Shown here piece after piece: positions 40,831-54,156 of a stretch of 64,000 nt of DNA. Under the pieces are notes generated by a model, which had not been told where the DNA came from, did not search any database, and saw nothing but the letters and a program-made list of their open reading frames with translations. The position numbers and the translations under genes were made by a program. The DNA comes from Lentisphaerota bacterium. GTDB lineage: Bacteria > Verrucomicrobiota > Lentisphaeria > Victivallales > Victivallaceae. The DNA is taken from positions 1 through 64,000 of the forward strand of contig SUWB01000011.1 of NCBI GenBank assembly GCA_015061745.1, given 5' to 3'. How positions within the stretch are numbered: the stretch's first letter is position 1; every line of letters begins with the position of its first letter.

Positions 40831-40907
40831 GCACCCGTAGCTCAGCTGGATAGAGCGTCTGCCTCCGGAGTAGAAGGTCGTGAGTTCGAATCTCGTCGGG
40901 TGTACCA
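40831..40907 (+). tRNA. tRNA-Arg (CCG)
   Basis: Cloverleaf with acceptor GCACCCG/CGGGTGT, D-arm GCTC/GAGC, anticodon loop CTCCGGA (anticodon CCG), T-arm GTGAGTTCGAATCTCGT (one G-T pair) and encoded CCA. A T run follows directly. It borders the accessory island. Confidence 0.95.
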
Positions 40908-41354: not shown

Positions 41355-41681
41355 TTTTACCTCCTTGCAGTTTAGAATTAAAAACACAAAGCCCCGCCGA
41401 TCCCAAAGGAGCGGCAGGGCCATATTTGATCGTGAGCTTATCTCTCGGAGGTAATATATAGGTCAAAATTTTTGAAGAGCAACCGGAAAATAAATTTATT
41501 TTTCCAGTTCATTGAAGATATGTTTATGCAAGGTCTGTTTGACCGCAGATTTGAAAAGTATACCTTGCATTACAAAGTCATACAAAACAACTGAAAATTC
41601 GCAAAAAGCATTTGGAAATATCTGTTTTGTGTGCTATGTTATTACTGAACAATAATTATTGCTTCTTGGGAGTTTGCGGAT
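41355..41681. other. intergenic region with leader hairpin and hsd promoter
   Basis: GCCCCGCCG and CGGCAGGGC (about 41383-41420) pair into a 9-bp stem with a T-rich run after it on the minus strand, i.e. a terminator-like element in the leader of the 43-aa gene. The hsd operon promoter lies at 41612-41640. No other gene is seen. Confidence 0.5.
41612..41640 (+). promoter_or_regulatory. promoter of the type I R-M mosaic operon
   Basis: TTGGAA (41612-41617), 17-bp spacer, TATGTT (41635-41640), about 42 bp before the first ATG. The -10 differs from the host-type TATATT. Confidence 0.5.
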
Positions 41682-41873
41682 ATGGAAGACTGTTGGTTGT
41701 CATTAAAAGAAATTACTGAATATCTGGGAGTGCGCCGGGAGACCGTTTATCGCTGGCTTGAACAGCGTGAAATGCCCGGACATCGGCTGGGGAAATTGTG
41801 GAAGTTCAAGAAAGATGAGGTTGATTCCTGGGTCAAGTCCGGCAAGGCCGCAGATGTGGAGGTTGTAAAATGA
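41682..41873 (+). CDS. excisionase/MerR-like helix-turn-helix protein
   Basis: The 63-aa protein is a single HTH_17-type domain: LSLKEITEYLGVRRETVYRWLE, then the wing MPGHRLGKLWKFKKDEVDSWV. Small proteins of this kind act as excisionases or local regulators and often precede hsdM. The stop overlaps hsdM by ATGA, so it is part of the operon and may control it. Confidence 0.85.
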   Translation: MEDCWLSLKEITEYLGVRRETVYRWLEQREMPGHRLGKLWKFKKDEVDSWVKSGKAADVEVVK

Positions 41874-43876
41874 CGATCAATATCAGAAAACTGGAAAATG
41901 ACCTTTGGGAATCCGCAGATTTGCTCCGGGCAGAATCGAAACTTACCTCCAACCAGTACTGTATGCCTGTTCTGGGCTTGCTCTTTTTGCGCTACGCCTA
42001 CAGCCGTTTCAAACTGGTTGAAAGAGAAATTCTTGCTCATCGTCCTGTTCGCAATGGCAGAGTATTGCCTGTGGAGGCTAGTGATTTCAAAGAAAAGAGC
42101 GCATTGTTTCTGTCGGAAGAAGCCCAATACCCCTATCTGGTGAATCTGCCAGAGAATATCGCTGAGGCCGGGCTGATCAATCAGGATGGACTGCCTATTA
42201 ACAGCCTTGGTGAGGCGGTCAATAATGCCATGGAGCTGATCGAGCAGCAGAGTGAACAGCTTCAAGGTGTTTTGCCCAAAGAGTACACGATGTTTTCAGA
42301 TGCTCTGCTTGCGGAACTGCTGCGGATTTTCAACAACAATCTGCTTGATGAGATCGGCGGAGATGTCTTCGGCCGGATCTATGAATACTTTCTCAATAAG
42401 TTTGCCAAGAACATCGCGTCTGATGACGGCGTGTTTTTTACGCCCAAGTCACTGGTTAAAATGATCGTGAATGTGCTGGAACCCAAATCCGGCATTCTGC
42501 TTGACCCTGCCTGCGGGTCGGGTGGAATGTTTGTGCAAACTGGAGATTTTGTCAATCACTCCGGAATGGTCGCCAACAACACCATGACCTTTTACGGTCA
42601 GGAAAAGGTGGAATACAATGCCCAGTTGTGTTTGATGAATATGGCCGTTCACGGACTTAACGGCAGGATCCTTTCCGGAGACGGAGCCAATACCTTTTAT
42701 CACGACGCTCACAATCTGGTTGGGGAATGCAACTACGTAATGGCCAATCCGCCCTTCAATGTAGATAAGGTCAAAGCGGAATCCACCGAAGCTGCCGGAC
42801 GGCTGCCCTTCGGAATGCCCGGTGTGAATAAAGCCAAAGAGGTAGGCAACGGCAACTATCTTTGGATTTCCTACTTCTACGCTTATCTGAATGAGCAGGG
42901 ACGAGCCGGATTTGTTATGGCTTCAAGTGCCACGGACAGTCAGGGCAAAGATAAAGAGATCCGGGAACAGCTGGTTAAGACCGGTCATGTTGATGTAATG
43001 GTCAGCGTGGGAAACAACTTCTTTTATACCAAGAGTCTCCCCTGTTCGCTCTGGTTCTTTGACAAGGGAAAGTCTGAAACGCTGAAAGAAAAAATCCTTT
43101 TCATTGATGCCCGAAGCTATTACACCGAAGTTGACCGTACTTTGAATGAGTGGTCTGAATGGCAGTTGAAAAATCTTAATGCCATCGTTTGGCTTTATCG
43201 TGGAGAGATGGAAAAATACCGCAATCTGATTGCAGCTTATCTGGGAACACTTCACGACGGAGCAGCTATGATCAAGGGAATTGCTCAAGTCTATCGGCGG
43301 CTGTTGGATGTTGACCGTGTCGGTCATTGGGACTGTGCCATCGACCATCTTTGCGATGAGCTGAAAGGTTTGAACGCTGAAGGGCTGGAAAAATCAGATG
43401 AGCTGCTTGCAAGTTTGAAAAATGCTGCCGAAATCCATAAAAAATGCACTGCCGGGCTGTTGGCGAATTATGCCAACAACCCGGCGACACAGAAAGACAA
43501 ACTGAAAGATGCAGGTTTCAACCGCCTGAATGCTTTCAAAAAGGCTTTGGAAACAAACGGCGAAGCCGTTGCTGAAGTCATCAACAGTTACATCACCATT
43601 TTGCAGGAAGCCAACTGGCTGACAGAAAAGTTTGGAACAGAGGGCAAATACGCAGATATTCCCGGTTTGTGTAAAATCGAAACAATTAAAGAAGTTGAAA
43701 AGAAAAACTGGTCACTGACCCCGGGGGCGTATGTGGGCGTTGCCGAAGCGGAAGATGACGGTGTGGATTTTACCGAAAGAATGCACGAGATCCACGCTGA
43801 ATTGCTGACCTTGCAGCAAGAGTCCAATGAACTGATGGCGAAGATCTTCGCAAACTTCAAGGAGCTGGGAATATGA
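41870..43876 (+). CDS. hsdM: type I restriction-modification methyltransferase subunit HsdM
   Basis: The 668-aa protein has the HsdM N-terminal helical domain (about 5-140), then the N6-adenine MTase domain with motif I LLDPACGSGGMF and motif IV NPPF, preceded by FFTPKSLVKMIV. The C-terminal 200 residues are helical and bind HsdS. It modifies adenine in the recognition site and is needed for restriction. It overlaps both neighbours by 4 bp (ATGA), which places an unrelated gene tightly between hsdM and hsdS. Confidence 0.96.
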   Translation: MTINIRKLENDLWESADLLRAESKLTSNQYCMPVLGLLFLRYAYSRFKLVEREILAHRPVRNGRVLPVEASDFKEKSALFLSEEAQYPYLVNLPENIAEAGLINQDGLPINSLGEAVNNAMELIEQQSEQLQGVLPKEYTMFSDALLAELLRIFNNNLLDEIGGDVFGRIYEYFLNKFAKNIASDDGVFFTPKSLVKMIVNVLEPKSGILLDPACGSGGMFVQTGDFVNHSGMVANNTMTFYGQEKVEYNAQLCLMNMAVHGLNGRILSGDGANTFYHDAHNLVGECNYVMANPPFNVDKVKAESTEAAGRLPFGMPGVNKAKEVGNGNYLWISYFYAYLNEQGRAGFVMASSATDSQGKDKEIREQLVKTGHVDVMVSVGNNFFYTKSLPCSLWFFDKGKSETLKEKILFIDARSYYTEVDRTLNEWSEWQLKNLNAIVWLYRGEMEKYRNLIAAYLGTLHDGAAMIKGIAQVYRRLLDVDRVGHWDCAIDHLCDELKGLNAEGLEKSDELLASLKNAAEIHKKCTAGLLANYANNPATQKDKLKDAGFNRLNAFKKALETNGEAVAEVINSYITILQEANWLTEKFGTEGKYADIPGLCKIETIKEVEKKNWSLTPGAYVGVAEAEDDGVDFTERMHEIHAELLTLQQESNELMAKIFANFKELGI

Positions 43877-44667
43877 GTGATCAGCCTTTGCCTCCCCAAA
43901 AGTTGGAACAATCTCAATACATCGTTGCGCACTTGGATTTTTTAGGTGCAAGTGAAAGGATGAAAAGTATTGAAATGCGAGATGATTTCTTACAAAAGAT
44001 ATACAAGATCTATTACGGGATAAAAAGTATTATGGAGCTGGTACCTGGCTATGGTGGGCCCGCATTGGATATTCGCATTTTTAGTGACAATATTTTGTTT
44101 GCACATAAGGTTCAAGCTGGTAAATCAATATTCGAAGAATGGCAGTATATTGCTGGCTGGGCAGCAGGATTTCAAGCATTTGCATTACTGTTTGAATTAT
44201 TGGTCAGAGGCGCAATATCATTTGGTGATTTTTATATCGACGATGTATTTGTATACGGCGAGGCTTTGGTAAAAGCCTATGAAATGGAAAACCAGCGAGC
44301 CATATATCCCCGGATAATCGTGGATAATGGTCTTTTAAAAAACACGCATTTCACAGGTAAAATCAAAACAGTCAAAGAAAATATAGTTTTCAAGGACGCT
44401 GATGGTGAATGGTACGTGAATTTCATTGCTCCATTGGTCCAAAAAAACGATAAGGCTCTTACTTTTTTGTCAGAACTTCAGACTGCAATTTCAAAAATGT
44501 ATGCTGAAAATCAAGGTGATTTGCGGGTGAGACAAAAATATTACTGGCTTATAAATAAGTTTAACGAATTAGTAAAGCAACACGGCTATGATCAATTTGT
44601 TATTCCCTCGGCAATTGACGGAGAACCTGATACCACAGCTGTTTTGCTTAAGCGAGGTGAAGCATGA
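43873..44667 (+). CDS. nucleotidyl cyclase-like protein embedded in the hsd operon
   Basis: The 264-aa protein is of uncertain family. The pattern fits a class III nucleotidyl cyclase-like palm: HLDFLGASE (D22) matches the first metal-binding strand, RIFSDNILF (D72) the second metal Asp on the hairpin, followed by RGAISFG (112-118), GEALVKAYEMEN (129-140) and YPRIIVD (145-151). Both candidate metal aspartates are retained. It has no TM segment. Overlaps with hsdM and hsdS (4 bp each) show co-translation. Proteins with this motif series are usually annotated hypothetical. A signalling role by cyclic nucleotides, as in Pycsar-type defence, is inference and not shown here. Confidence 0.5.
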   Translation: MSDQPLPPQKLEQSQYIVAHLDFLGASERMKSIEMRDDFLQKIYKIYYGIKSIMELVPGYGGPALDIRIFSDNILFAHKVQAGKSIFEEWQYIAGWAAGFQAFALLFELLVRGAISFGDFYIDDVFVYGEALVKAYEMENQRAIYPRIIVDNGLLKNTHFTGKIKTVKENIVFKDADGEWYVNFIAPLVQKNDKALTFLSELQTAISKMYAENQGDLRVRQKYYWLINKFNELVKQHGYDQFVIPSAIDGEPDTTAVLLKRGEA

Positions 44668-45794
44668 GTAAATGGCTGCCGATAAAACTTGGCGATATTG
44701 CCTGTAATATTCAAACCGGCCCTTTTGGGTCCCAGCTTCACCAATCAGATTATTCTGCAATCGGCACACCTGTTGTTATGCCTAAAGATTTGATTGCAGG
44801 CAAAATATCAGAGCAATCTATCGCAAGAGTGGGAGAAGCCCATGTCAAAAGACTTGCACGGCACCAAATAAAAGACGGAGACATTTTATATTCTCGCAGA
44901 GGTGACGTCGGCAGATGTGCCTATGCGACAGATGCAGAAACAAATTGGTTGTGTGGTACAGGTTGTTTGAAAGTTACGATTGATTCATCTAAGGCGATAT
45001 CGAAATTTGTATTTTACCAATTACAGACTTCGCAATCCGTAGGTTGGGTAGAAAAGCATGCTGTTGGTTCAACAATGCTGAATTTGAACACATCAATTTT
45101 AGCCAATATTCCGCTTTCATTGCCGCCGCTTGATGTCCAGCAAAAAATTGCAGGTATACTTTCGGCGTATGATGATTTGATTGAAAACAACCGGAAACAG
45201 ATCAAGCTTCTGGAAGAAGCCGCCCAGCGGCTCTATAAAGAATGGTTCATCGACCTCCGCTTCCCCGGCCACGAAACAACTCGCATTATCAATGGAGTGC
45301 CTGAGGGGTGGCATAGAACACAACTTAAAGATTTAATCTTAATTAAATACGGAAAAGATCATAAAAACATATCCGATGGCGACATTCCTGTATACGGGGC
45401 CGGTGGTTTTATGAGAAAATGTTCTCAGGCATTACACCATGGTGAAGCTGTCCTTATTCCACGGAAAGGTTCATTGAATAACATTATGTACGTCAACGAA
45501 TCATTTTGGACCGTTGATACGATGTTTTATGCCTTGATGCAGCAACCGAATATTGGATTCTTTACCTATTTGCTTTTAAAATCAATAGATATGTATGCAA
45601 TGAATATTGGAGCAGCTGTCCCGAGTATGACAGCCAGTATACTCAACGCCATTGGAGTAATGTTGCCGTCAGCAACAGTACTTAAGCAATTTCACCAAAA
45701 CGCCTTATCCTTATTCGAGAAAACTTCAATTTTGAGAAAACAAAATGAACATTTGGTGAAATCAAGAAATCGCTTATTACAAAAATTATTATAA
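44664..45794 (+). CDS. hsdS: type I restriction-modification specificity subunit HsdS
   Basis: The 376-aa protein has two target-recognition domains. TRD1 starts WLPIKLGDIACNIQTGPFGS and ends at the helical spacer IPLSLPPLDVQQKIAGILSAYDDLI (split near 150-175) with EEAAQRLYKEWF; TRD2 starts GWHRTQLKDLILIKYGKD and ends QFHQNALSLFEK. It determines the DNA target of the HsdM/R complex. The gene overlaps the cyclase-like gene and is followed after 21 bp by the two-TM protein. Confidence 0.95.
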   Translation: MSKWLPIKLGDIACNIQTGPFGSQLHQSDYSAIGTPVVMPKDLIAGKISEQSIARVGEAHVKRLARHQIKDGDILYSRRGDVGRCAYATDAETNWLCGTGCLKVTIDSSKAISKFVFYQLQTSQSVGWVEKHAVGSTMLNLNTSILANIPLSLPPLDVQQKIAGILSAYDDLIENNRKQIKLLEEAAQRLYKEWFIDLRFPGHETTRIINGVPEGWHRTQLKDLILIKYGKDHKNISDGDIPVYGAGGFMRKCSQALHHGEAVLIPRKGSLNNIMYVNESFWTVDTMFYALMQQPNIGFFTYLLLKSIDMYAMNIGAAVPSMTASILNAIGVMLPSATVLKQFHQNALSLFEKTSILRKQNEHLVKSRNRLLQKLL

Positions 45795-45815
45795 ACTCTG
45801 AAAGGCTCACAAATT

Positions 45816-46829
45816 ATGGAAAACGCATTTTTTATTATGGGAGGCACGACTTCCCAGAGGCTGCCAATAACGATTTCGAAACTGCATATATGTACTTGGA
45901 ACATGCGAGACTGTAATGCTTATTTTGAATTGGGAATTGAAATTGCGGCGAATACATTATCGCTTAATGTGGATTATTCAATCTCCTTTCTTGCTGAATG
46001 GTTAAGTCCAGACTGCGAAATTATTAGTTTGCATGAGAAATTTGCAGATTCTGATAATGCACGTTTTATATTTAATGAAACTGTTGAGTCTACAAGAGAT
46101 GTAAATGGAAATAAGCACAACGGGACCCGAATTTCATTTACAAATAAAAGACAGATTATGCTTTTACCGATAAATGAAGCGAAACCGCAAGATGGAATGG
46201 TTATCTTAACTTTTAACAACAAAGCACCTCAAGGAGTTTATCCATATATTCGAATTTTGATAAAAACTCCTTTATCACAATTAGCTATGATAAAAAAAGG
46301 AATTGCTAAAAACAGTTATGTTTTTGATATAAAAATTAATGAGAAAAGAAATTTACCCAATTGGGTCCTTGACGTGCAAAATCAAAGTAATTCTCAATTT
46401 TGTCCTATTGAAAAAGCATTTTGTCTTCACGCTGTTCCGGCGAGTTACGAAATAAGTTTTATAGACAGCAATAAACTTAAAAACGTTCGTAAGTTAGAGA
46501 AAAGTGCTTTTACAAAATATTTGCCGGAAATAAAGTCCATCGAAAATGATGACTATATAATTACTTTCAGTAAAAGTGAGGATAAAGACAAATCAAGCTA
46601 TTCTTTCTTTAGTGTTTTTACTCAAGAAACAATCGGTACTGATCAAGTTATAATTGCGGTCATTATAAATGTCGTATGCAGCTTATTGTTTGCTCTGGGA
46701 AGTTGGAGATTATCATGTTTTGCACTTAAAAACAGGTGGCAAAAAATTCCTTGGGAGTTTGGAATTGCTTTTATTGTCGTTATTATTGCTTTTACAATAT
46801 TTTGTCAACACCGGAGGAAGGCCAAATGA
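45816..46829 (+). CDS. protein of unknown function with C-terminal two-TM hairpin
   Basis: The 337-aa protein has about 275 soluble residues rich in predicted beta strands (ISKLHICTWNMRDCNAYF; GTRISFTNKRQIMLLP) and two TM helices near the C-terminus (about 278-299, VIIAVIINVVCSLLFALGS; 313-330, FGIAFIVVIIAFTIF) followed by a basic HRRKAK tail. No signal peptide and no family recognised. The coding sequence is noticeably AT-rich compared with hsdM and hsdR. It lies between hsdS and the PIN-GNAT gene with an ATGA overlap to the latter. A membrane effector role is a context-only inference. Confidence 0.6.
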   Translation: MENAFFIMGGTTSQRLPITISKLHICTWNMRDCNAYFELGIEIAANTLSLNVDYSISFLAEWLSPDCEIISLHEKFADSDNARFIFNETVESTRDVNGNKHNGTRISFTNKRQIMLLPINEAKPQDGMVILTFNNKAPQGVYPYIRILIKTPLSQLAMIKKGIAKNSYVFDIKINEKRNLPNWVLDVQNQSNSQFCPIEKAFCLHAVPASYEISFIDSNKLKNVRKLEKSAFTKYLPEIKSIENDDYIITFSKSEDKDKSSYSFFSVFTQETIGTDQVIIAVIINVVCSLLFALGSWRLSCFALKNRWQKIPWEFGIAFIVVIIAFTIFCQHRRKAK

Positions 46830-48331
46830 AAGCATTGCTTGACACAAATATAATAATACATCGCGAAGCAGATCGAGTAATCAATCAGGATATTGGTATT
46901 TTATTTCGTTGGCTTGACAGAGCAAAATATGTGAAATGTATGCATCCTTGTTCAATCGAAGAATTGAAAAAATATGCGGACGAAAGAACAGTTGATACTT
47001 TTATGGTAAAAACAAGTAGCTATGAGATAATCGAATATCCAAGTCCGTTATGCCAAGATGTAAAAAATGTTTCCACTCAAGTCGACACAACGCCGAACGA
47101 TCTTAACGACACATCTTTGCTTAATGAGGTTTTTATCAATCGTGTGGACATTTTGATTACCGAGGATAAAAAAATTCATAAAAAAGCCTCAATGCTTGGT
47201 ATTGCAGAAAAAGTTTTTACCATTGACAGTTTTTTGGAAAAGGTTTTCTCAGAACACCCCGAATTGGTCAATTACAACGTTCTTAATGTAAAAAAGGTTA
47301 AATTCGGAAGCTTAAATTTGCAAGATCCTTTTTTCGATAGCTTGCGCATCGACTATCCTGGATTCGATCAATGGTTTATCAAAAAATTTGATGAGGAATG
47401 CTACGTCACTATAAACTCTTCCAATAAACTATTACTTTCTTTTCTCTATTTGAAGATTGAAAATAAAGACGAAAACTATTTTGATATAAATCCTGCTTTT
47501 CAACCTAAAAAGCGCCTAAAGGTAGGTACCTTTAAGGTTATCAGTAACGGGCTGCGTCTTGGGGAGAGATTCATAAAGATTATTTTTGATAATGCATTAA
47601 AAAATAAAGTCGACGAAGTATATGTAACAATCTTTGACAAGAATACTGAGCAGCAACGCCTTATTGCTTTGTTGGAACAGTGGGGATTCCATTATTGGGG
47701 TAACAAAGGGAACGAAAAGGTTTATGTAAGAAATTTTACACCTCAATACGATAAAAACCTATTAAAGGCTAACTATCCATATATTCGTTGTGATCAAAGG
47801 ATTTTTCTGCTGGCAATCTATCCGGAGTATCATACTGAATTGTTACCTGATTCAATTCTTACGACAGAATCTCCACTTGAGTTTGTCGAAGACTTTCCAC
47901 ATAGGAATTGCATATCTAAGGTATATGTTTCTCGTGCTTTACCGCCATATCCCCAACATGGTGATATATTGCTATTCTATAGGACCGGGGGATACTACAA
48001 AAGTGTAATTACTACTATTGGCATTGTAGATGAGGTAGTAAACAATTTTGGCTGCGAAGCTGATTTTTTAAAATTTTGCAAAAAAAGCACGGTATTTCCT
48101 GAAAATAAGTTGAAAGAAATGTGGAATTATAATGCTTTCAGAAAACCCTTTGCCGTAAGATTTTTGTACGAATATTCAATTCCTCATCGTTTGACAATGA
48201 AAGACCTTATTGATTTGAAAATTCTTGCAGGCATCGATGATGCGCCTCGTGGTTTTAAGGAAATCACGAAAGAACAATTTATCACGATTTTGAAGGAATC
48301 TAAAAGTGACCAAAGTTTTATTATCAATTAA
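46826..48331 (+). CDS. PIN-GNAT-PUA-like three-domain protein
   Basis: The 501-aa protein begins MKALLDTNIIIHRE, a PIN nuclease N-terminus (D6; other acidic candidates E45/E46, D95, and E113-D114 in ITEDKKIH). Residues about 165-303 resemble a GNAT acetyltransferase (VGTFKVISNGLRLGERFIK, then IALLEQWGF). Residues about 355-450 (YPQHGDILLFYRTGG, TTIGIVDEV) look like an EVE/ASCH-type PUA fold. ATG 46826 has GGAGGAAGG upstream and overlaps the previous stop (ATGA); an upstream GTG frame is unsupported. PIN suggests RNA cleavage and GNAT acetyl transfer, as in toxin modules. AT-rich. Confidence 0.65.
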   Translation: MKALLDTNIIIHREADRVINQDIGILFRWLDRAKYVKCMHPCSIEELKKYADERTVDTFMVKTSSYEIIEYPSPLCQDVKNVSTQVDTTPNDLNDTSLLNEVFINRVDILITEDKKIHKKASMLGIAEKVFTIDSFLEKVFSEHPELVNYNVLNVKKVKFGSLNLQDPFFDSLRIDYPGFDQWFIKKFDEECYVTINSSNKLLLSFLYLKIENKDENYFDINPAFQPKKRLKVGTFKVISNGLRLGERFIKIIFDNALKNKVDEVYVTIFDKNTEQQRLIALLEQWGFHYWGNKGNEKVYVRNFTPQYDKNLLKANYPYIRCDQRIFLLAIYPEYHTELLPDSILTTESPLEFVEDFPHRNCISKVYVSRALPPYPQHGDILLFYRTGGYYKSVITTIGIVDEVVNNFGCEADFLKFCKKSTVFPENKLKEMWNYNAFRKPFAVRFLYEYSIPHRLTMKDLIDLKILAGIDDAPRGFKEITKEQFITILKESKSDQSFIIN

Positions 48332-48683
48332 ACCTGAATTTGCAAATAAAATTTTTGATGGAACTAAAAAATATGAGTTCCGCAAAATTCTATTTAAGCG
48401 GCCAGATATTTCAGGAGTGCTAGTATATGCATCCACACCTGTTCAACGTATTATTGGAGAATTTACAATAGATGCCATTATATCGGGAACTCTTCCTGCC
48501 GTTTGGGAAATTGCCCAAAATGAAGCAGGAATTTCCCGAGATTACTTTTTTTCATATTTTGCCGATAAAACAAAGGCTCATGCCATTAAAATAGGAAAAA
48601 CTAGAAAATTTAAACGCCCGAGAACATTGGCTCAATATGACATAAAAAACGCACCACAATCATTTGTCTACGTTGAAGATTGA
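48306..48683 (+). CDS. ASCH-domain protein
   Basis: The 125-aa protein matches the ASCH (PUA-like) domain: VLLSIKPEFANKIFDGTKKYEFRK at the N-terminus, then VLVYASTPVQRIIGEF. ASCH domains bind RNA or nucleotides. It starts at GTG, overlapping the PIN-GNAT gene by 26 bp, and hsdR follows 32 bp later. The pairing suggests it works with the PIN-GNAT protein as partner, possibly antitoxin or targeting factor (inference). Confidence 0.75.
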   Translation: MTKVLLSIKPEFANKIFDGTKKYEFRKILFKRPDISGVLVYASTPVQRIIGEFTIDAIISGTLPAVWEIAQNEAGISRDYFFSYFADKTKAHAIKIGKTRKFKRPRTLAQYDIKNAPQSFVYVED

Positions 48684-48715
48684 TTTGTTATTACAATCAA
48701 AGGGAAGAAAAATCA

Positions 48716-51700
48716 ATGAGTTACGAGTATTCTGAAAATATTCTGGTGCAGGATAGTGCGGGGAAGCTGCTCCATGATGAACTTGGCTGGGATGTCAAGT
48801 TTGCTTACAATACCGAAGTTCTCGGACCGGAGGGGACTTTCGGACGGAAAAACTATCACGAAATTTTGCTTTCCCGATATTTCCGCCTTAAAATCAAAGA
48901 GTTCAATCCCTGGATCACTCCGGCTCAGATCGATGAAGCCCAAAAGAAACTCGAAGCTCACCTCGCTTCTGCCTCTTTGATGCAGATCAATGAGGGAAAA
49001 TATTCTCTCATCCGTGACGGTATCCCCGTTTCCGTCAAACTCTCCAATGGCAAAATCTCCATCCGTACCGCCAGACTCATCGATTTTCAGAATCCCGCCA
49101 ACAACCATTTTCTCGCCATCAAGGAACTCAAAATCCACGGTTCTCTCCACCGTCGCCGGACGGACATTGTGGGCTTTGTTAACGGCATCCCGCTTTTGTT
49201 TATGGAATTCAAAGCTGTTAATGTTGATGTACAAGATGCCTATACCAACAATTATACCGACTATCTGGCGACCATTCCGCAGCTCTTCTATTACAACGCG
49301 TTTCTCATCCTGAGTAACGGACATCACGCAAAAGTCGGAACCCTCGGCAGTAAATACGAATTCTTCCACGAATGGAAACGTCTTAAAGAACAGGATCCCG
49401 GCTGCGTGGAATTGCAGACTATGCTCCGGGGGATCTGCAAAAAAGAGACCTTCATTGATCTACTCGAAAACTTTATCCTCTTCGATCATTCAGGCGGTCG
49501 TACTGCCAAAATCCTTGCCCGCAACCATCAGTATCTCGGTGTCAATGAAGCCGTTGAAGCCTACAAAAACAGAAAACTCAAAGAGGGCAAACTGGGCGTT
49601 TTCTGGCATACCCAAGGCAGCGGAAAGAGTTACTCCATGCTCTTTCTCGCTCAAAAGATCCGCCGCAAGTTTGAAGGCTCTCCGACCATCGTTATTCTGA
49701 CTGATCGTGATGAGCTTAATTCACAGATCAGCGACACCTTTGAAAACTGCGGTATTCTCGGAGCCGTCAAGGGGGCTCATTTTATTGCCTCCAGCGGCTC
49801 TGACCTGATCAACAAACTTAAAGGCAATCCCAGCTTTATTTTTACTCTGATTCAGAAATTCAATCAAGGGAATCCAACTCCGATCATTCCTGACCACGAT
49901 ATTATTATTATGTCAGATGAGGCTCACCGCAGTCAAAATGGTATCTTTGCCGACAATATGTGTTCTTTACTGCCCACAGCCTCCCGTATCGGATTTACCG
50001 GTACTCCTCTCCTTTCTAATGATAACATTACAGAAAGGACCTTCGGCGGTTATGTTTCCATCTATGACTTCAAACGGGCTGTTGATGACGGCGCAACCGT
50101 TCCTCTTTACTATGAAAACAGGGGGCAGAAATTCAAGGATATCACAAGTCCCGAAATTACTGAACGCATTATCGAAGCTGTTGAAGCCGCCGATCTAGAT
50201 CCCAATCAGCAGGAAAAGCTGGAACGGGAGTTCGCAAAGGAAATCCATTTGCTGACTGCTGAATCACGCTTTGAGGCGCTGGCTCAGGATTTTGTTGAAC
50301 ACTATTCTGACTTGTGGACTTGCGGCAAGGCTATGTATGTCTGCTTGAACAAAATTTCCTGTGTCCGGATGTATAATCTCGTTCAAAAATACTGGCAGCT
50401 TAAAATTTCTGAACTGGAAACGCAGCTCGAAAAAGAAACTTCACAGCAAACAGCTCAAGAGCTTTCCCGTAAGATCAACTGGATGAAAGAAACTGAAATG
50501 GCAGTGGTCGTTAGTCAGGAACAAAACGAAATCAAAGCTTTTGACGCCTGGGGATTGGATATCCGTCCGCACCGCACGAAAATGGAAACCCGGGAACTGG
50601 ATAAGGAATTCAAAGATTCCCAAAATCCTTTCCGCGTGGTCTTTGTCTGTGCTATGTGGCTGACCGGATTTGATGTAAAATCTCTCTCATGCCTCTATCT
50701 GGATAAACCTCTCAAAGCCCACACTCTTATGCAAACTATCGCTCGGGCAAATCGTGTGGCAGAAGGGAAAACAAACGGGCTCATCCTTGACTACATCGGT
50801 ATTGTCAAGGCTCTGCGTGAAGCGTTGGCTGCATATACGTCCCAAGAGGGGCACGGCAATGGAACTGATCCGACGGTAAACAAAGAAGAGCTTATTCATA
50901 GAATTCAGAACATCATAGGCACAACCAAAACATTCCTGCAGAAGAATAACTTTTCTCTGGATGCCTTGATTGCTTCCTCTGGTTTTGAACGTATCGCCTT
51001 GCTGCAGCAGGCAGCAAATGAATTATGCAAAACTTTGGAGATCAAAAAAGAGTTCCAAACATCGGCAAGTGAACTTTTCAGGCTGTGGAAATATTTAGAC
51101 CGAAATGATATTACTCCTTCCATGCGTCAGGAAAAAGATGCTGTCAACGGAATTTTCAACGAACTGCAGAAAAAACGCAAAAATGCAGATAATACAGCGT
51201 TGATGGTTCAAATTCACGAAATCGTCAATGAATATGTTGCCACTGAATCTGCCGACCGGAGTACGCCCCGTTCTTTTGATATCAGTCAGATCGACTTTGA
51301 ATTATTGCAGAAAGAGTTTGCGAAGACACGGAAGAAATTCCTGCTTCTGAAAGATCTCGAAGAACTCATTGAACAGCGGCTTTCTACAATGCTGCCGACC
51401 AATCCCAAACGGATCGATTACTACACAAAATATCAGGCAATCATTGAAAGCTACAACGGCGAACAGGATAAAGCCAAGATAGAAAAAACATTTATGGATT
51501 TGATGAAATTGAGCAGTGAGCTTGATTCAGAGCAGCGCCGATATGTCCGTGAAGGTTTTTCCAGCGATGAAGAGCTTTCTGTCTACGATTTGCTTTTCAA
51601 AGACTCCCTTTCTGCCAAGGATATCAAAAAAATCAAAGAGATTTCCATTGAACTTCTTGCCAAAGTCAAAGAAAAAATAGCCGAACTCGACCATTGGCGG

Positions 51701-51853
51701 GACAAAGAAGATACTCGGTCTGCCGTCAGTAATCTTATCCGCGACTCGTTGTTCGTTTCTCTGCCTCAAAGCTACGATGATCAAAGCATCAACCAGTACA
51801 CCGGTCTGATCTACGAGCACGTTTACAACCGTTACCCCGCTGTCGCCGGATAA
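48716..51853 (+). CDS. hsdR: type I restriction endonuclease subunit HsdR
   Basis: The 1,045-aa protein has the N-terminal nuclease (D150 in TDIVGFVNG, E164 and K166 in MEFKAV), Walker A TQGSGKS (299-305), DEAH box at 401-404 and FTGTP, and the second RecA lobe with FVCAMWLTGFDVKSL and ARANRV. The C-terminal 250 residues are helical and bind HsdM. It translocates DNA and cleaves unmodified targets. ATG 48716 after AGGGAAG; an in-frame ATG 36 bp upstream is less likely. Codon use is host-like, unlike the four intervening genes. Confidence 0.96.
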   Translation: MSYEYSENILVQDSAGKLLHDELGWDVKFAYNTEVLGPEGTFGRKNYHEILLSRYFRLKIKEFNPWITPAQIDEAQKKLEAHLASASLMQINEGKYSLIRDGIPVSVKLSNGKISIRTARLIDFQNPANNHFLAIKELKIHGSLHRRRTDIVGFVNGIPLLFMEFKAVNVDVQDAYTNNYTDYLATIPQLFYYNAFLILSNGHHAKVGTLGSKYEFFHEWKRLKEQDPGCVELQTMLRGICKKETFIDLLENFILFDHSGGRTAKILARNHQYLGVNEAVEAYKNRKLKEGKLGVFWHTQGSGKSYSMLFLAQKIRRKFEGSPTIVILTDRDELNSQISDTFENCGILGAVKGAHFIASSGSDLINKLKGNPSFIFTLIQKFNQGNPTPIIPDHDIIIMSDEAHRSQNGIFADNMCSLLPTASRIGFTGTPLLSNDNITERTFGGYVSIYDFKRAVDDGATVPLYYENRGQKFKDITSPEITERIIEAVEAADLDPNQQEKLEREFAKEIHLLTAESRFEALAQDFVEHYSDLWTCGKAMYVCLNKISCVRMYNLVQKYWQLKISELETQLEKETSQQTAQELSRKINWMKETEMAVVVSQEQNEIKAFDAWGLDIRPHRTKMETRELDKEFKDSQNPFRVVFVCAMWLTGFDVKSLSCLYLDKPLKAHTLMQTIARANRVAEGKTNGLILDYIGIVKALREALAAYTSQEGHGNGTDPTVNKEELIHRIQNIIGTTKTFLQKNNFSLDALIASSGFERIALLQQAANELCKTLEIKKEFQTSASELFRLWKYLDRNDITPSMRQEKDAVNGIFNELQKKRKNADNTALMVQIHEIVNEYVATESADRSTPRSFDISQIDFELLQKEFAKTRKKFLLLKDLEELIEQRLSTMLPTNPKRIDYYTKYQAIIESYNGEQDKAKIEKTFMDLMKLSSELDSEQRRYVREGFSSDEELSVYDLLFKDSLSAKDIKKIKEISIELLAKVKEKIAELDHWRDKEDTRSAVSNLIRDSLFVSLPQSYDDQSINQYTGLIYEHVYNRYPAVAG

Positions 51854-51935
51854 ACTTTACTGTTGTAAAGCTATTGTGGACAATTTCTGTTGGAAAATTT
51901 CCAACTATTTTTTCTTTTTACTCAAGAAAATCCGC

Positions 51936-52151
51936 TTAAGCCAAAGGAGTGGATTGCGTGGGCTTTTCTCCGAGAGAGGGAAGAACTTTGACCGCATTGA
52001 CTTTTGTGTCCAGGGCGACGTGGGTGTAGCGTGCCGTCATATCAACGGTGGTGTGTCCTACCAGATCACGCACGACAAGGGGATTGACTCCGCTGTTGAT
52101 CAGCATACTGACGTAGGAATGCCGGAAGGCGTGGAAGCCAGACGGGAAACA
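51936..52151 (-). pseudogene. tyrosine recombinase C-terminal remnant 1
   Basis: Minus strand translation gives GFHAFRHSYVSMLINSG, VVRDLVGHTTVDMTARYTHVAL and ends at TAA 51936. It holds HxxR, GH and the nucleophile Tyr (TARY) of XerC/D-type integrases. Everything N-terminal to about 52151 is missing: the sequence changes abruptly into a different (+) reading frame. It marks a deletion or recombination scar. Confidence 0.85.
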
Positions 52152-52650: not shown

Positions 52651-52698
52651 CTCTGATTTTCGTTTGAAAAAATATAATACAGAATAGAGAGCACTTTT

Positions 52699-52780
52699 AA
52701 AATCTTGAAAACGTGGTTTTATTTTGCTTGAAAATCTTGAAAACGTGATATATTATTTGTTAAAATATTTTGAAAACGTG
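52699..52780 (+). repeat. three TTGAAAACGTG direct repeats
   Basis: Cores at 52705-52715, 52737-52747 and 52770-52780, spaced 32 and 33 bp apart (about three helical turns). The first two extend identically upstream as AAAATC. The second sits exactly in the spacer of the predicted promoter, the others flank it. Confidence 0.85.
52728..52756 (+). promoter_or_regulatory. promoter of the AAA/DUF4143 gene
   Basis: TTGAAA (52728-52733), 17-bp spacer, TATTAT (52751-52756), about 48 bp before the ATG; the middle direct repeat covers the spacer. Confidence 0.5.
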
Positions 52781-52803
52781 ATCTCAATAACAGGAAATGA
52801 CTT

Positions 52804-54156
52804 ATGAAACGAAAAATTTATGATTCTTTGATGGAATGGAAAGCCAAGGATTCCGGACGGGTTGCATTGCTGATAGACGGAGCAAGACGTGTAGGCAAAA
52901 GCTATATTGCTGAAGAGTTTGCCAAAAATGAATATAAGTCCTACATTTTGATAGACTTCAACAAGGTCAATAAAGATGTGAAACGTCTGTTCGATGACTT
53001 TCTGGATGACCTTGATACATTCTTTGCCTACCTGTCTGCCTACTTTAACGTGCAGTTATATCCCCGGCAATCTCTTATTATTTTTGATGAAGTTCAGTTG
53101 TACCCTCGCGCCAGAGCAGCAATAAAATATCTGGTTGCTGATGGGCGGTATGATTACATTGAGACCGGCTCTCTGGTATCCATTAAAGCCAACGTTTCTG
53201 ATATCGTCATTCCGTCTGAAGAACGGCACATTAAAATGTATCCGCTGGATTTTGAGGAGTTTCTCTGGGCAAGCGGAAATGAAACATTGATGCCGTTGAT
53301 TCGTCAGAGTTTCTCCAAACTGCGTCCGCTGGGAGATGTGATTCACCGCAAAGCAATGGATTATTTCCGGCAGTATCTGATTGTGGGAGGTATGCCGCAA
53401 GCTGTTCAGGAATACGTTAACAACAAAAATTTTGCAAATGTCGATATAATCAAGCGTGATATTCTCACCTTGTACCGGGCTGACATTATCAAGCACGCCA
53501 AAGGTTATGAGCGCAAAGTCGAATCGATCTTTGATGAAATCCCATCGCAGCTGCAAAAGCACGAGAAACGCTTCAATCTGGCTTCTCTCGGGAAACAGGC
53601 GAGGTTTCGTGAATATGAGGACGCCATGTTCTGGCTGGAAGATGCCATGATCGTTAATATTTGCTATAATTCGACGGCTCCGACCGCCGGGTTGAAAATG
53701 AACAGTGACCGTATGACATTGAAATGCTATATGGCAGATACCGGCTTGCTGATAAGTCACGCCTTTGATGAAAATTCCATCGTTTCTGAGGAAGTCTATA
53801 AAAAACTTTTACTCGGCAAATTGGAATTCAACGAAGGTATGATTGTTGAAAATATCGTTGCCCAAATGCTGGTTGCTTCAGATCACCGTTTGTATTTTTA
53901 CCGCAATCCAAGCAGAGATGATGCTTCTGAGAGAATGGGAATAGATTTTCTTATTGCCAAGCAGAAAATCACAAGCCGACATAATATTTCGCCACTGGAA
54001 GTCAAATCCGGGAAAAGTTATACTTTGACCTCTCTGCAGAAATTCCGTCAGAAATTTGCTCAGCAACTCCATACACCATATGTACTCCACAGTGCGGATG
54101 TAATGGAAAAAAATGGAGTTACCTGTCTGCCGCTTTATATGACTCCATTGCTGTAA
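52804..54156 (+). CDS. AAA ATPase with DUF4143 domain
   Basis: The 450-aa protein has Walker A GARRVGKS (26-33), Walker B LIIFDEVQ (D95-E96), sensor-like ETGSLVS, and the DUF4143 region (about 200-400: YLIVGGMPQAVQEYV, YMADTGLLIS). The C-terminus has a PD-(D/E)xK-like pattern (MGIDFLIAKQ, then PLEVKSGK). This family is widespread and mobile, often in defence or plasmid-like contexts; its biochemical role is not settled. AGGAAAT precedes ATG. Its only partner in sight is a repeat-bearing promoter; the gene downstream is convergent. Confidence 0.85.
   Translation: MKRKIYDSLMEWKAKDSGRVALLIDGARRVGKSYIAEEFAKNEYKSYILIDFNKVNKDVKRLFDDFLDDLDTFFAYLSAYFNVQLYPRQSLIIFDEVQLYPRARAAIKYLVADGRYDYIETGSLVSIKANVSDIVIPSEERHIKMYPLDFEEFLWASGNETLMPLIRQSFSKLRPLGDVIHRKAMDYFRQYLIVGGMPQAVQEYVNNKNFANVDIIKRDILTLYRADIIKHAKGYERKVESIFDEIPSQLQKHEKRFNLASLGKQARFREYEDAMFWLEDAMIVNICYNSTAPTAGLKMNSDRMTLKCYMADTGLLISHAFDENSIVSEEVYKKLLLGKLEFNEGMIVENIVAQMLVASDHRLYFYRNPSRDDASERMGIDFLIAKQKITSRHNISPLEVKSGKSYTLTSLQKFRQKFAQQLHTPYVLHSADVMEKNGVTCLPLYMTPLL

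Follow-up and report, generated by a model that had tools for sequence, protein, structure and literature searches.

A type I restriction-modification (R-M) operon with additional genes at two internal positions lies on contig SUWB01000011.1 of a Lentisphaerota bacterium (GCA_015061745.1), within the 64,000-nucleotide stretch analyzed here (the window). Its backbone, consisting of a small helix-turn-helix (HTH) gene, hsdM, hsdS and hsdR, is, judging from sequence, a type I R-M operon of a gut-type bacterium; one additional gene, coding for a protein with a predicted nucleotide-cyclase fold, occupies the hsdM/hsdS slot (slot 1), and three more, coding for a two-transmembrane (TM) protein, a PIN-GNAT-PUA/EVE protein and an ASCH-domain protein, occupy the hsdS/hsdR slot (slot 2). 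The boundaries of both slots are apparent from comparison with a closely similar operon, related operons carry different cargo, and each of the two cassettes recurs elsewhere. With moderate confidence, we interpret the operon as a carrier of exchangeable defense cassettes with the functions proposed below. The general pattern, defense cargo inside a type I R-M operon, is already known; the two inserted families, cyclase-fold and TM, seem to be recurring partners without a previous description. Type I R-M operons rank with the most common defenses of bacteria and are now employed as bait in the search for new ones. Here, an eight-gene puzzle resolves into a backbone and two cassettes with base-level borders, and provides two leads that are missing from Pfam, PADLOC 2.0.0 and NCBIfam, namely, a cyclase-fold family that recurs in type I operons and a membrane protein partnered with the published PIN-GNAT-EVE/ASCH module, either of which would be a small, testable addition.

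Organization of the operon

All eight open reading frames (ORFs) are on the + strand, each closed by a single terminal stop, and one operon encodes HsdM, HsdS and HsdR, each with the domains that define it. The junctions, in gene order, measure -4, -4, -4, +21, -4, -26 and +32 bp, that is, four ATGA overlaps, one overlap of 26 bp, and gaps of 21 and 32 bp, in exact agreement with the first-pass annotation of this DNA, which had been made from the sequence alone. Such overlaps suggest that the eight products are made together. The family assignments of that annotation were likewise borne out by Pfam (N6_Mtase/HsdM_N, Methylase_S, HSDR_N/SWI2_SNF2, ASCH, HTH_17) and PADLOC (PDC-M11A, PDC-M11B), its "cyclase-like" call by a predicted class III cyclase fold, and its two-TM call by hydropathy peaks at residues 278-296 and 311-329. 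The features are as follows, with the sibling being the operon of the same-genus genome G008 (locus L014).

41574-41681, + strand: candidate promoter/operator region, conserved with the sibling (blastn match starting at 41574; alignment)
41682-41873, + strand: gene 1, small HTH regulator, excisionase-type HTH_17, MAD1-like (HTH_17 4.9e-15; sibling copy 87% identical)
41870-43876, + strand: hsdM, type I N6-adenine methyltransferase (N6_Mtase 4.6e-71, HsdM_N; PADLOC MTase_I 1.9e-282)
43873-44667, + strand: protein with a predicted class III cyclase fold, the cargo in the hsdM/hsdS slot
44664-45794, + strand: hsdS, type I specificity subunit with two target-recognition domains (Methylase_S, two stretches)
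45816-46829, + strand: two-TM protein, joining the (PIN)-GNAT-EVE/ASCH pair as third member
46826-48331, + strand: PIN-GNAT-PUA/EVE protein (PDC-M11A), ATG at 46826 (PADLOC PDLC04422 4.2e-210)
48306-48683, + strand: ASCH-domain protein (PDC-M11B), GTG start (PADLOC PDLC04425 3.4e-47; ASCH 21.5 bits)
48716-51853, + strand: hsdR, type I restriction/translocase subunit (HSDR_N 2e-37, SWI2_SNF2 1.8e-64; sibling copy 81% identical)
51889-51905, + strand: terminator-like hairpin 3' of hsdR (consensus scan, weak; such sites are frequent by chance here, with 16 found against 9.7 expected in shuffles)

A palindrome at 41650-41661 was considered as an operator and rejected: it occurs in one copy, where chance alone would give 0.2 (one mismatch allowed), and is not conserved in the sibling.

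Clean slot borders and varied cargo

Comparison with the sibling by protein identity and blastn separates the backbone from the cargo. The HTH protein, HsdM and HsdR are 87%, 84% and 81% identical, respectively, compared to 58% for HsdS and 36% for the cyclase-fold protein; within HsdS, scored in blocks of 50 residues, the first 200 residues are 70-90% identical and the remainder 10-38%. At the nucleotide level, similarity is limited to 41574-43880, 44664-45277 and 48706-51840, with none between, so that it breaks off where hsdM ends, returns with the first base of hsdS, breaks off again after the first half of that gene and returns 10 bp before hsdR. Because similarity stops and resumes at these points, the inserts are cleanly bounded, and the coincidence of the borders with gene ends is more than chance.

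More distant relatives show that the slots hold varied cargo. Searching 197 genomes of the class with HsdM at 1e-60 yielded 22 positive genomes including that of the window; neighborhoods were fetched for 16 of the other 21, and 9 of these were complete for hsdM, hsdS and hsdR on one contig (ORF maps followed a greedy longest-ORF rule, which masked the hsdM of L057, recovered later). An extra ORF of at least 180 aa is present in the M/S or S/R slot in seven of the nine complete loci (L014, L049, L050, L057, L059, L061 and L062); L051 has small extra ORFs only, and L055 has none. The cargo includes Fic-BroN, Fic-wHTH, RelA/SpoT, ORF6N, YhcG, Abi_C, AAA_13, TIR and FRG, of which four correspond to PADLOC candidates (Fic-BroN to PDC-S04, RelA/SpoT to PDC-S33, YhcG to PDC-S02 and AAA_13 to PDC-S06), along with proteins without any family match. 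The cyclase-fold gene is found in one of the nine loci (L014), and no TM, PIN-GNAT or ASCH gene in any. The first-pass annotation had proposed that its reading would fail if homologous hsd loci nearly always lacked the inserted genes and these never co-occurred; across the nine loci, the outcome lies half-way, as the exact combination indeed looks like a one-off while recurrence is seen for the slots and for each module. Its view of an R-M backbone with defense-type genes added in "one or two" packages is supported, two being found, whereas its treatment of the four extra genes as a single set finds no support, given that none of the 31 fetched cyclase-fold loci, several of them on short stretches, has a TM or PIN-GNAT match.

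Ahead of the cyclase-fold gene of the sibling lies one for a 222-aa protein (L014, 9980-10648) that weakly resembles 23S rRNA-intervening-sequence proteins (E 1e-4, below the cut-off).

A cyclase-fold protein encoded next to HsdS

The slot 1 protein has no family in Pfam (E to 1), PADLOC 2.0.0 (E 0.1) or NCBIfam (E 0.1), and its model predicts a class III nucleotide-cyclase fold. The metal-binding aspartates D22 and D72, assigned by motif without residue-level superposition, are retained in 12 of 12 aligned rows. The usual transition-state pair of class III nucleotide cyclases is Asn/Arg. In this family, the pair is lost, with Asn at position 133 in 1 of 12 rows and Arg at 137 in none (positions by motif); in its place, Glu139 is invariant and Arg147 nearly so. 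PycC was absent among the 50 VIA-align matches listed for the model, which is uninformative on kinship. For P0005, relatives were found neither in plasmids nor in viral contigs and, among 78 genomes of the family, only in its own.

Members of the family occur both inside and outside R-M operons. A sequence-only scan of genome contigs returned seven loci, two of them the seeds, and four of the five others are in type I operons: L064 from Melainabacteria, L067 from Oscillospiraceae, L068 from Elusimicrobium and L069 from Clostridiales. Neither the fifth, L070, nor L089 shows an hsd match; the two are probably halves of one gene, so that the 31 fetched cyclase-fold loci comprise about 30 genes. 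Together with the sibling, five other genomes, from four phyla, thus have the gene inside a type I operon, with hsdM, hsdS and hsdR all on its strand (L014, L064, L067, L068 and L069; 5 of 31 fetched loci). Counting the window, it lies between hsdM and hsdS, adjoining hsdS, in five of six R-M loci; in L068, it is the first gene, ahead of hsdR. Where it meets hsdS in the window, L014, L064 and L069, the two genes overlap by 4, 8 or 20 bp or are 3 bp apart (longest-ORF starts). Elsewhere, L097 has hsdS and hsdR on the opposite strand, and L090 an hsdM-like match 7 kb away. A profile search at 1e-8 covered 398 genomes from the phylum of G198, with the family present in 4, and 146 from that of G197, a Melainabacteria metagenome-assembled genome, with the family present in 8, seed genomes counted; the newly found members are all outside R-M operons. 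The counts of hsd neighbors among the 31 loci may be too low, as each hsd profile was made from only 12 loci and could overlook distant R-M genes, and as some of the fetched stretches are short or stop at contig ends.

The family thus belongs to defense contexts in general, and its enrichment in type I operons is likely, by the rough expectation that a type I locus occupies less than 1% of a genome. In a tree of 26 rows, the six R-M rows require five changes, most forks being weak and the branches long; a one-change topology appeared in 0 of 200 bootstrap trees, and shuffled labels gave a count as low in 179 of 500 trials. The type I operons with the gene have very different backbones, and it probably joined them on several separate occasions. 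A single old insertion was rejected on the five changes and the bootstrap result, strong branches still being compatible with one origin.

What the protein does for the operon can be read in several ways. Most likely, it is a nucleotide-binding reporter on, or tuner of, the HsdM-HsdS complex: it would bind a nucleotide together with metal and would not act jointly with the TM protein as a pair. A narrower version, which we regard as doubtful although a serious contender, makes it a control subunit of the R-M enzyme that senses a nucleotide and adjusts HsdM-HsdS assembly or restriction, without forming a separate layer of defense. Its position next to hsdS fits this version, as does the fact that its constant partners in R-M loci are only hsdM, hsdS and hsdR while other cargo varies; against it, most fetched members are outside type I operons, as in L095, where a helicase of Schlafen group 3 (SLFN-g3) and SIR2 are the neighbors, in L111 and in viral contigs. 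A bolder extension, in which this non-canonical family is a recurring type I R-M part, translated just before HsdS, that couples the state of the restriction complex to a nucleotide signal, we hold to be quite improbable. If true, some type I enzymes would be nucleotide-signalling immune sensors, and such a tie between nucleotides and restriction would be a real surprise.

The cargo might instead be hitch-hiking in a defense-island hotspot, tied to R-M by nothing beyond shared transcription. The single occurrence of the exact combination, the presence of the same families beside phage genes and in other islands, and the absence of the slot 2 genes from all nine related complete loci speak for this explanation. 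However, the cyclase-fold gene directly precedes hsdS in the window, L014, L064 and L069, and the ATGA couplings of the window are intact, and random insertion would rarely preserve both position and coupling; we consider passive carriage unlikely.

Two further contexts of the family were noted. In L095 (4503-11673), the SLFN-g3 helicase, the cyclase-fold gene, a 469-aa protein and a SIR2/ThsA-like protein are clustered, and L098 (7548-12217) holds a seemingly decayed copy of this cluster, both in genomes of the Melainabacteria phylum; it is possible that this is a separate defense system. On a viral contig (L111, 3178-8711), an MmeI-type R-M enzyme, the cyclase-fold gene and a DEAD helicase are consecutive. 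No report of the cyclase-fold gene in R-M operons was found in the open-access literature listed, a scope that leaves out most subscription papers.

The TM, PIN-GNAT-EVE and ASCH module

The TM protein matches no family in Pfam (E to 1) or PADLOC 2.0.0 (E 0.1), and its NCBIfam match (E 0.032) is far below the cut-off. On plasmids, all six records that hold a gene of this family also hold a (PIN)-GNAT gene no more than about 1.7 kb away; (PIN)-GNAT itself was found in only 33 of 72,556 records. Because of this co-occurrence, we conclude from sequence context that the TM, PIN-GNAT-EVE and ASCH genes form one module. In the window, the PIN-GNAT-PUA/EVE gene and the adjacent ASCH gene overlap by 26 bp. 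The first-pass annotation had not recognized the set of extra genes; part of it is in fact published, as PIN-GNAT-EVE genes, with an ASCH partner, are often closely associated with HsdR/M/S operons according to the accessible text of Bell et al. 2020 (PMC7641849), and the pair is present in PADLOC (PDC-M11A/B). The window differs from those operons by the two-TM gene ahead of the pair; the word "transmembrane" is absent from the main text of that paper, so that the TM partner goes unmentioned there. The same text states that no module of this type had been experimentally characterized, and the name PDC-M11 does not occur in the open-access literature searched.

The slot 2 module probably attacks RNA, judging by its domains. 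In the proposed mechanism, R-M would cut incoming DNA as the first layer, and slot 2 would be a conditional toxin module that failure or inhibition of R-M might set free. The PIN RNase and the GNAT acetyltransferase would attack RNA, possibly tRNA, selected by the PUA/EVE domain; the ASCH protein could be a binder of modified bases or an antitoxin; and the TM protein might place the toxin at the membrane or damage the membrane itself. An abortive back-up role for the inserted genes, as suggested in the first-pass annotation, is plausible.

An activity of the YqfB type (ASCH amidohydrolase, deacetylation) was rejected for the ASCH protein, which has K-x-x-E-x-R against K-x-x-T-x-R in YqfB, with Glu instead of Thr at the nucleophile position; the motif was matched by eye and covers the K, T and R positions. 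The catalytic residues of YqfB, as given in the accessible part of PMC6972931, are the Lys21-Thr24-Glu74 triad and Arg26.

The joint presence of a class III cyclase fold, with both metal aspartates in all 12 rows, and a TM protein in one operon recalls Pycsar, in which a cyclic nucleotide made by the cyclase opens a TM effector; PycC likewise has two metal aspartates and the system includes PycTM effectors, as far as the accessible text of PMC11224242 goes. For the window, we regard such a pair as highly improbable. The cyclase-fold gene has hsdM and hsdS as neighbors, with no adjacent cyclic-nucleotide receptor; the TM protein is without any Pfam domain, hence no cyclic nucleotide monophosphate-binding domain was found; and the Asn/Arg pair is lost. 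A TM or PIN-GNAT match was found in 0 of 31 cyclase-fold loci (several stretches being short), and the TM family goes with (PIN)-GNAT in the plasmid records; the cyclase-fold and TM proteins were rejected as a pair on co-occurrence.

Several observations weigh against a carrier operon with the functions proposed. Those functions are inferred throughout. The AlphaFold2 model of the TM protein is poor (pLDDT 39), too poor for a structure search. A search for TM genes, without a positive control, came back empty for the phylum of G198 (398 genomes, 12 of which have PDC-M11A); the TM protein is therefore an optional partner. Nor is either cassette restricted to R-M: of the 31 PIN-GNAT stretches fetched besides the window, only 4 show an hsd-like match, no such match was found at the other three PDC-M11A loci of the class, and 24 of the 31 cyclase-fold loci have no hsd match, so that R-M is not the sole home of this family. 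That the cyclase-fold gene entered several times is a suggestion of the five-change tree, whose strongly supported branches would also allow a single entry.

Variants of the module were seen on two plasmids. In a Rhizobium plasmid (L117, 5378-11180), there is an apparent double module of GNAT, ASCH, TM, ASCH and PIN-GNAT, along with a small protein that has the appearance of a nucleotide kinase. In a Phocaeicola plasmid (L107, 1392-9423), four hsdS-like ORFs on both strands, which look like an invertible specificity cluster, are followed by GNAT-EVE and ASCH.

Relationship to known systems

Extra genes in hsd loci have an earlier example in the rlo and mlo genes of Campylobacter. A close parallel in layout is the RRDM island of enteropathogenic Escherichia coli (EPEC), with the order RptR-hsdM-hsdS-DarTG2-hsdR, a count of seven ORFs and an HTH repressor first, as laid out in the accessible text of PMC12255303. 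Like the window, this island has a small HTH gene first and a toxin module between hsdS and hsdR; unlike it, the toxin is DarTG2 and, by the count of seven ORFs, the hsdM/hsdS insert is lacking. The likeness of RptR to the window HTH protein is one of position, by description rather than by sequence, and DarTG2 is a precedent for the slot position only.

Discovery by "guilt-by-embedding", in which defense genes are found embedded in other defense systems (Payne et al. 2024, as described in the accessible parts of PMC12988326 and PMC10855318), yielded candidates of which PDC-S02, S04, S06 and S33 occupy the same slots in operons related to that of the window; by contrast, the cyclase-fold and TM families of the window match no PADLOC 2.0.0 model (E 0.1).

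An integrated eight-gene machine resembling MADS appears very unlikely. As in MADS, the operon begins with a gene resembling MAD1, has an insert between its M and S genes and, by coupling, is a single transcription unit. By NCBIfam and PADLOC models, however, the HTH protein scores 75.2 bits against the 80-bit cut-off for MAD1, and the best scores for MAD2 (46.9 against 720 bits) and MAD5 (49.1 against 400 bits) are far below cut-off; the window has a full hsdR and different inserts, and the sibling retains the backbone with different cargo.

Genomic surroundings

A tRNA-Arg gene (40831-40907) lies upstream of the operon, and what appears by eye to be the remnant of a tyrosine recombinase C-terminus (51940-52140, - strand) lies directly downstream of hsdR, which together make an old integrative island likely; no convincing att repeats between the two were found among the 20 largest repeat families listed. 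Farther downstream, three direct repeats with TTGAAAACGTG, spaced by 32-33 bp (52691-52782), form a candidate operator array, just ahead of a 450-aa ORF (52804-54156) that is ATPase-like by eye.

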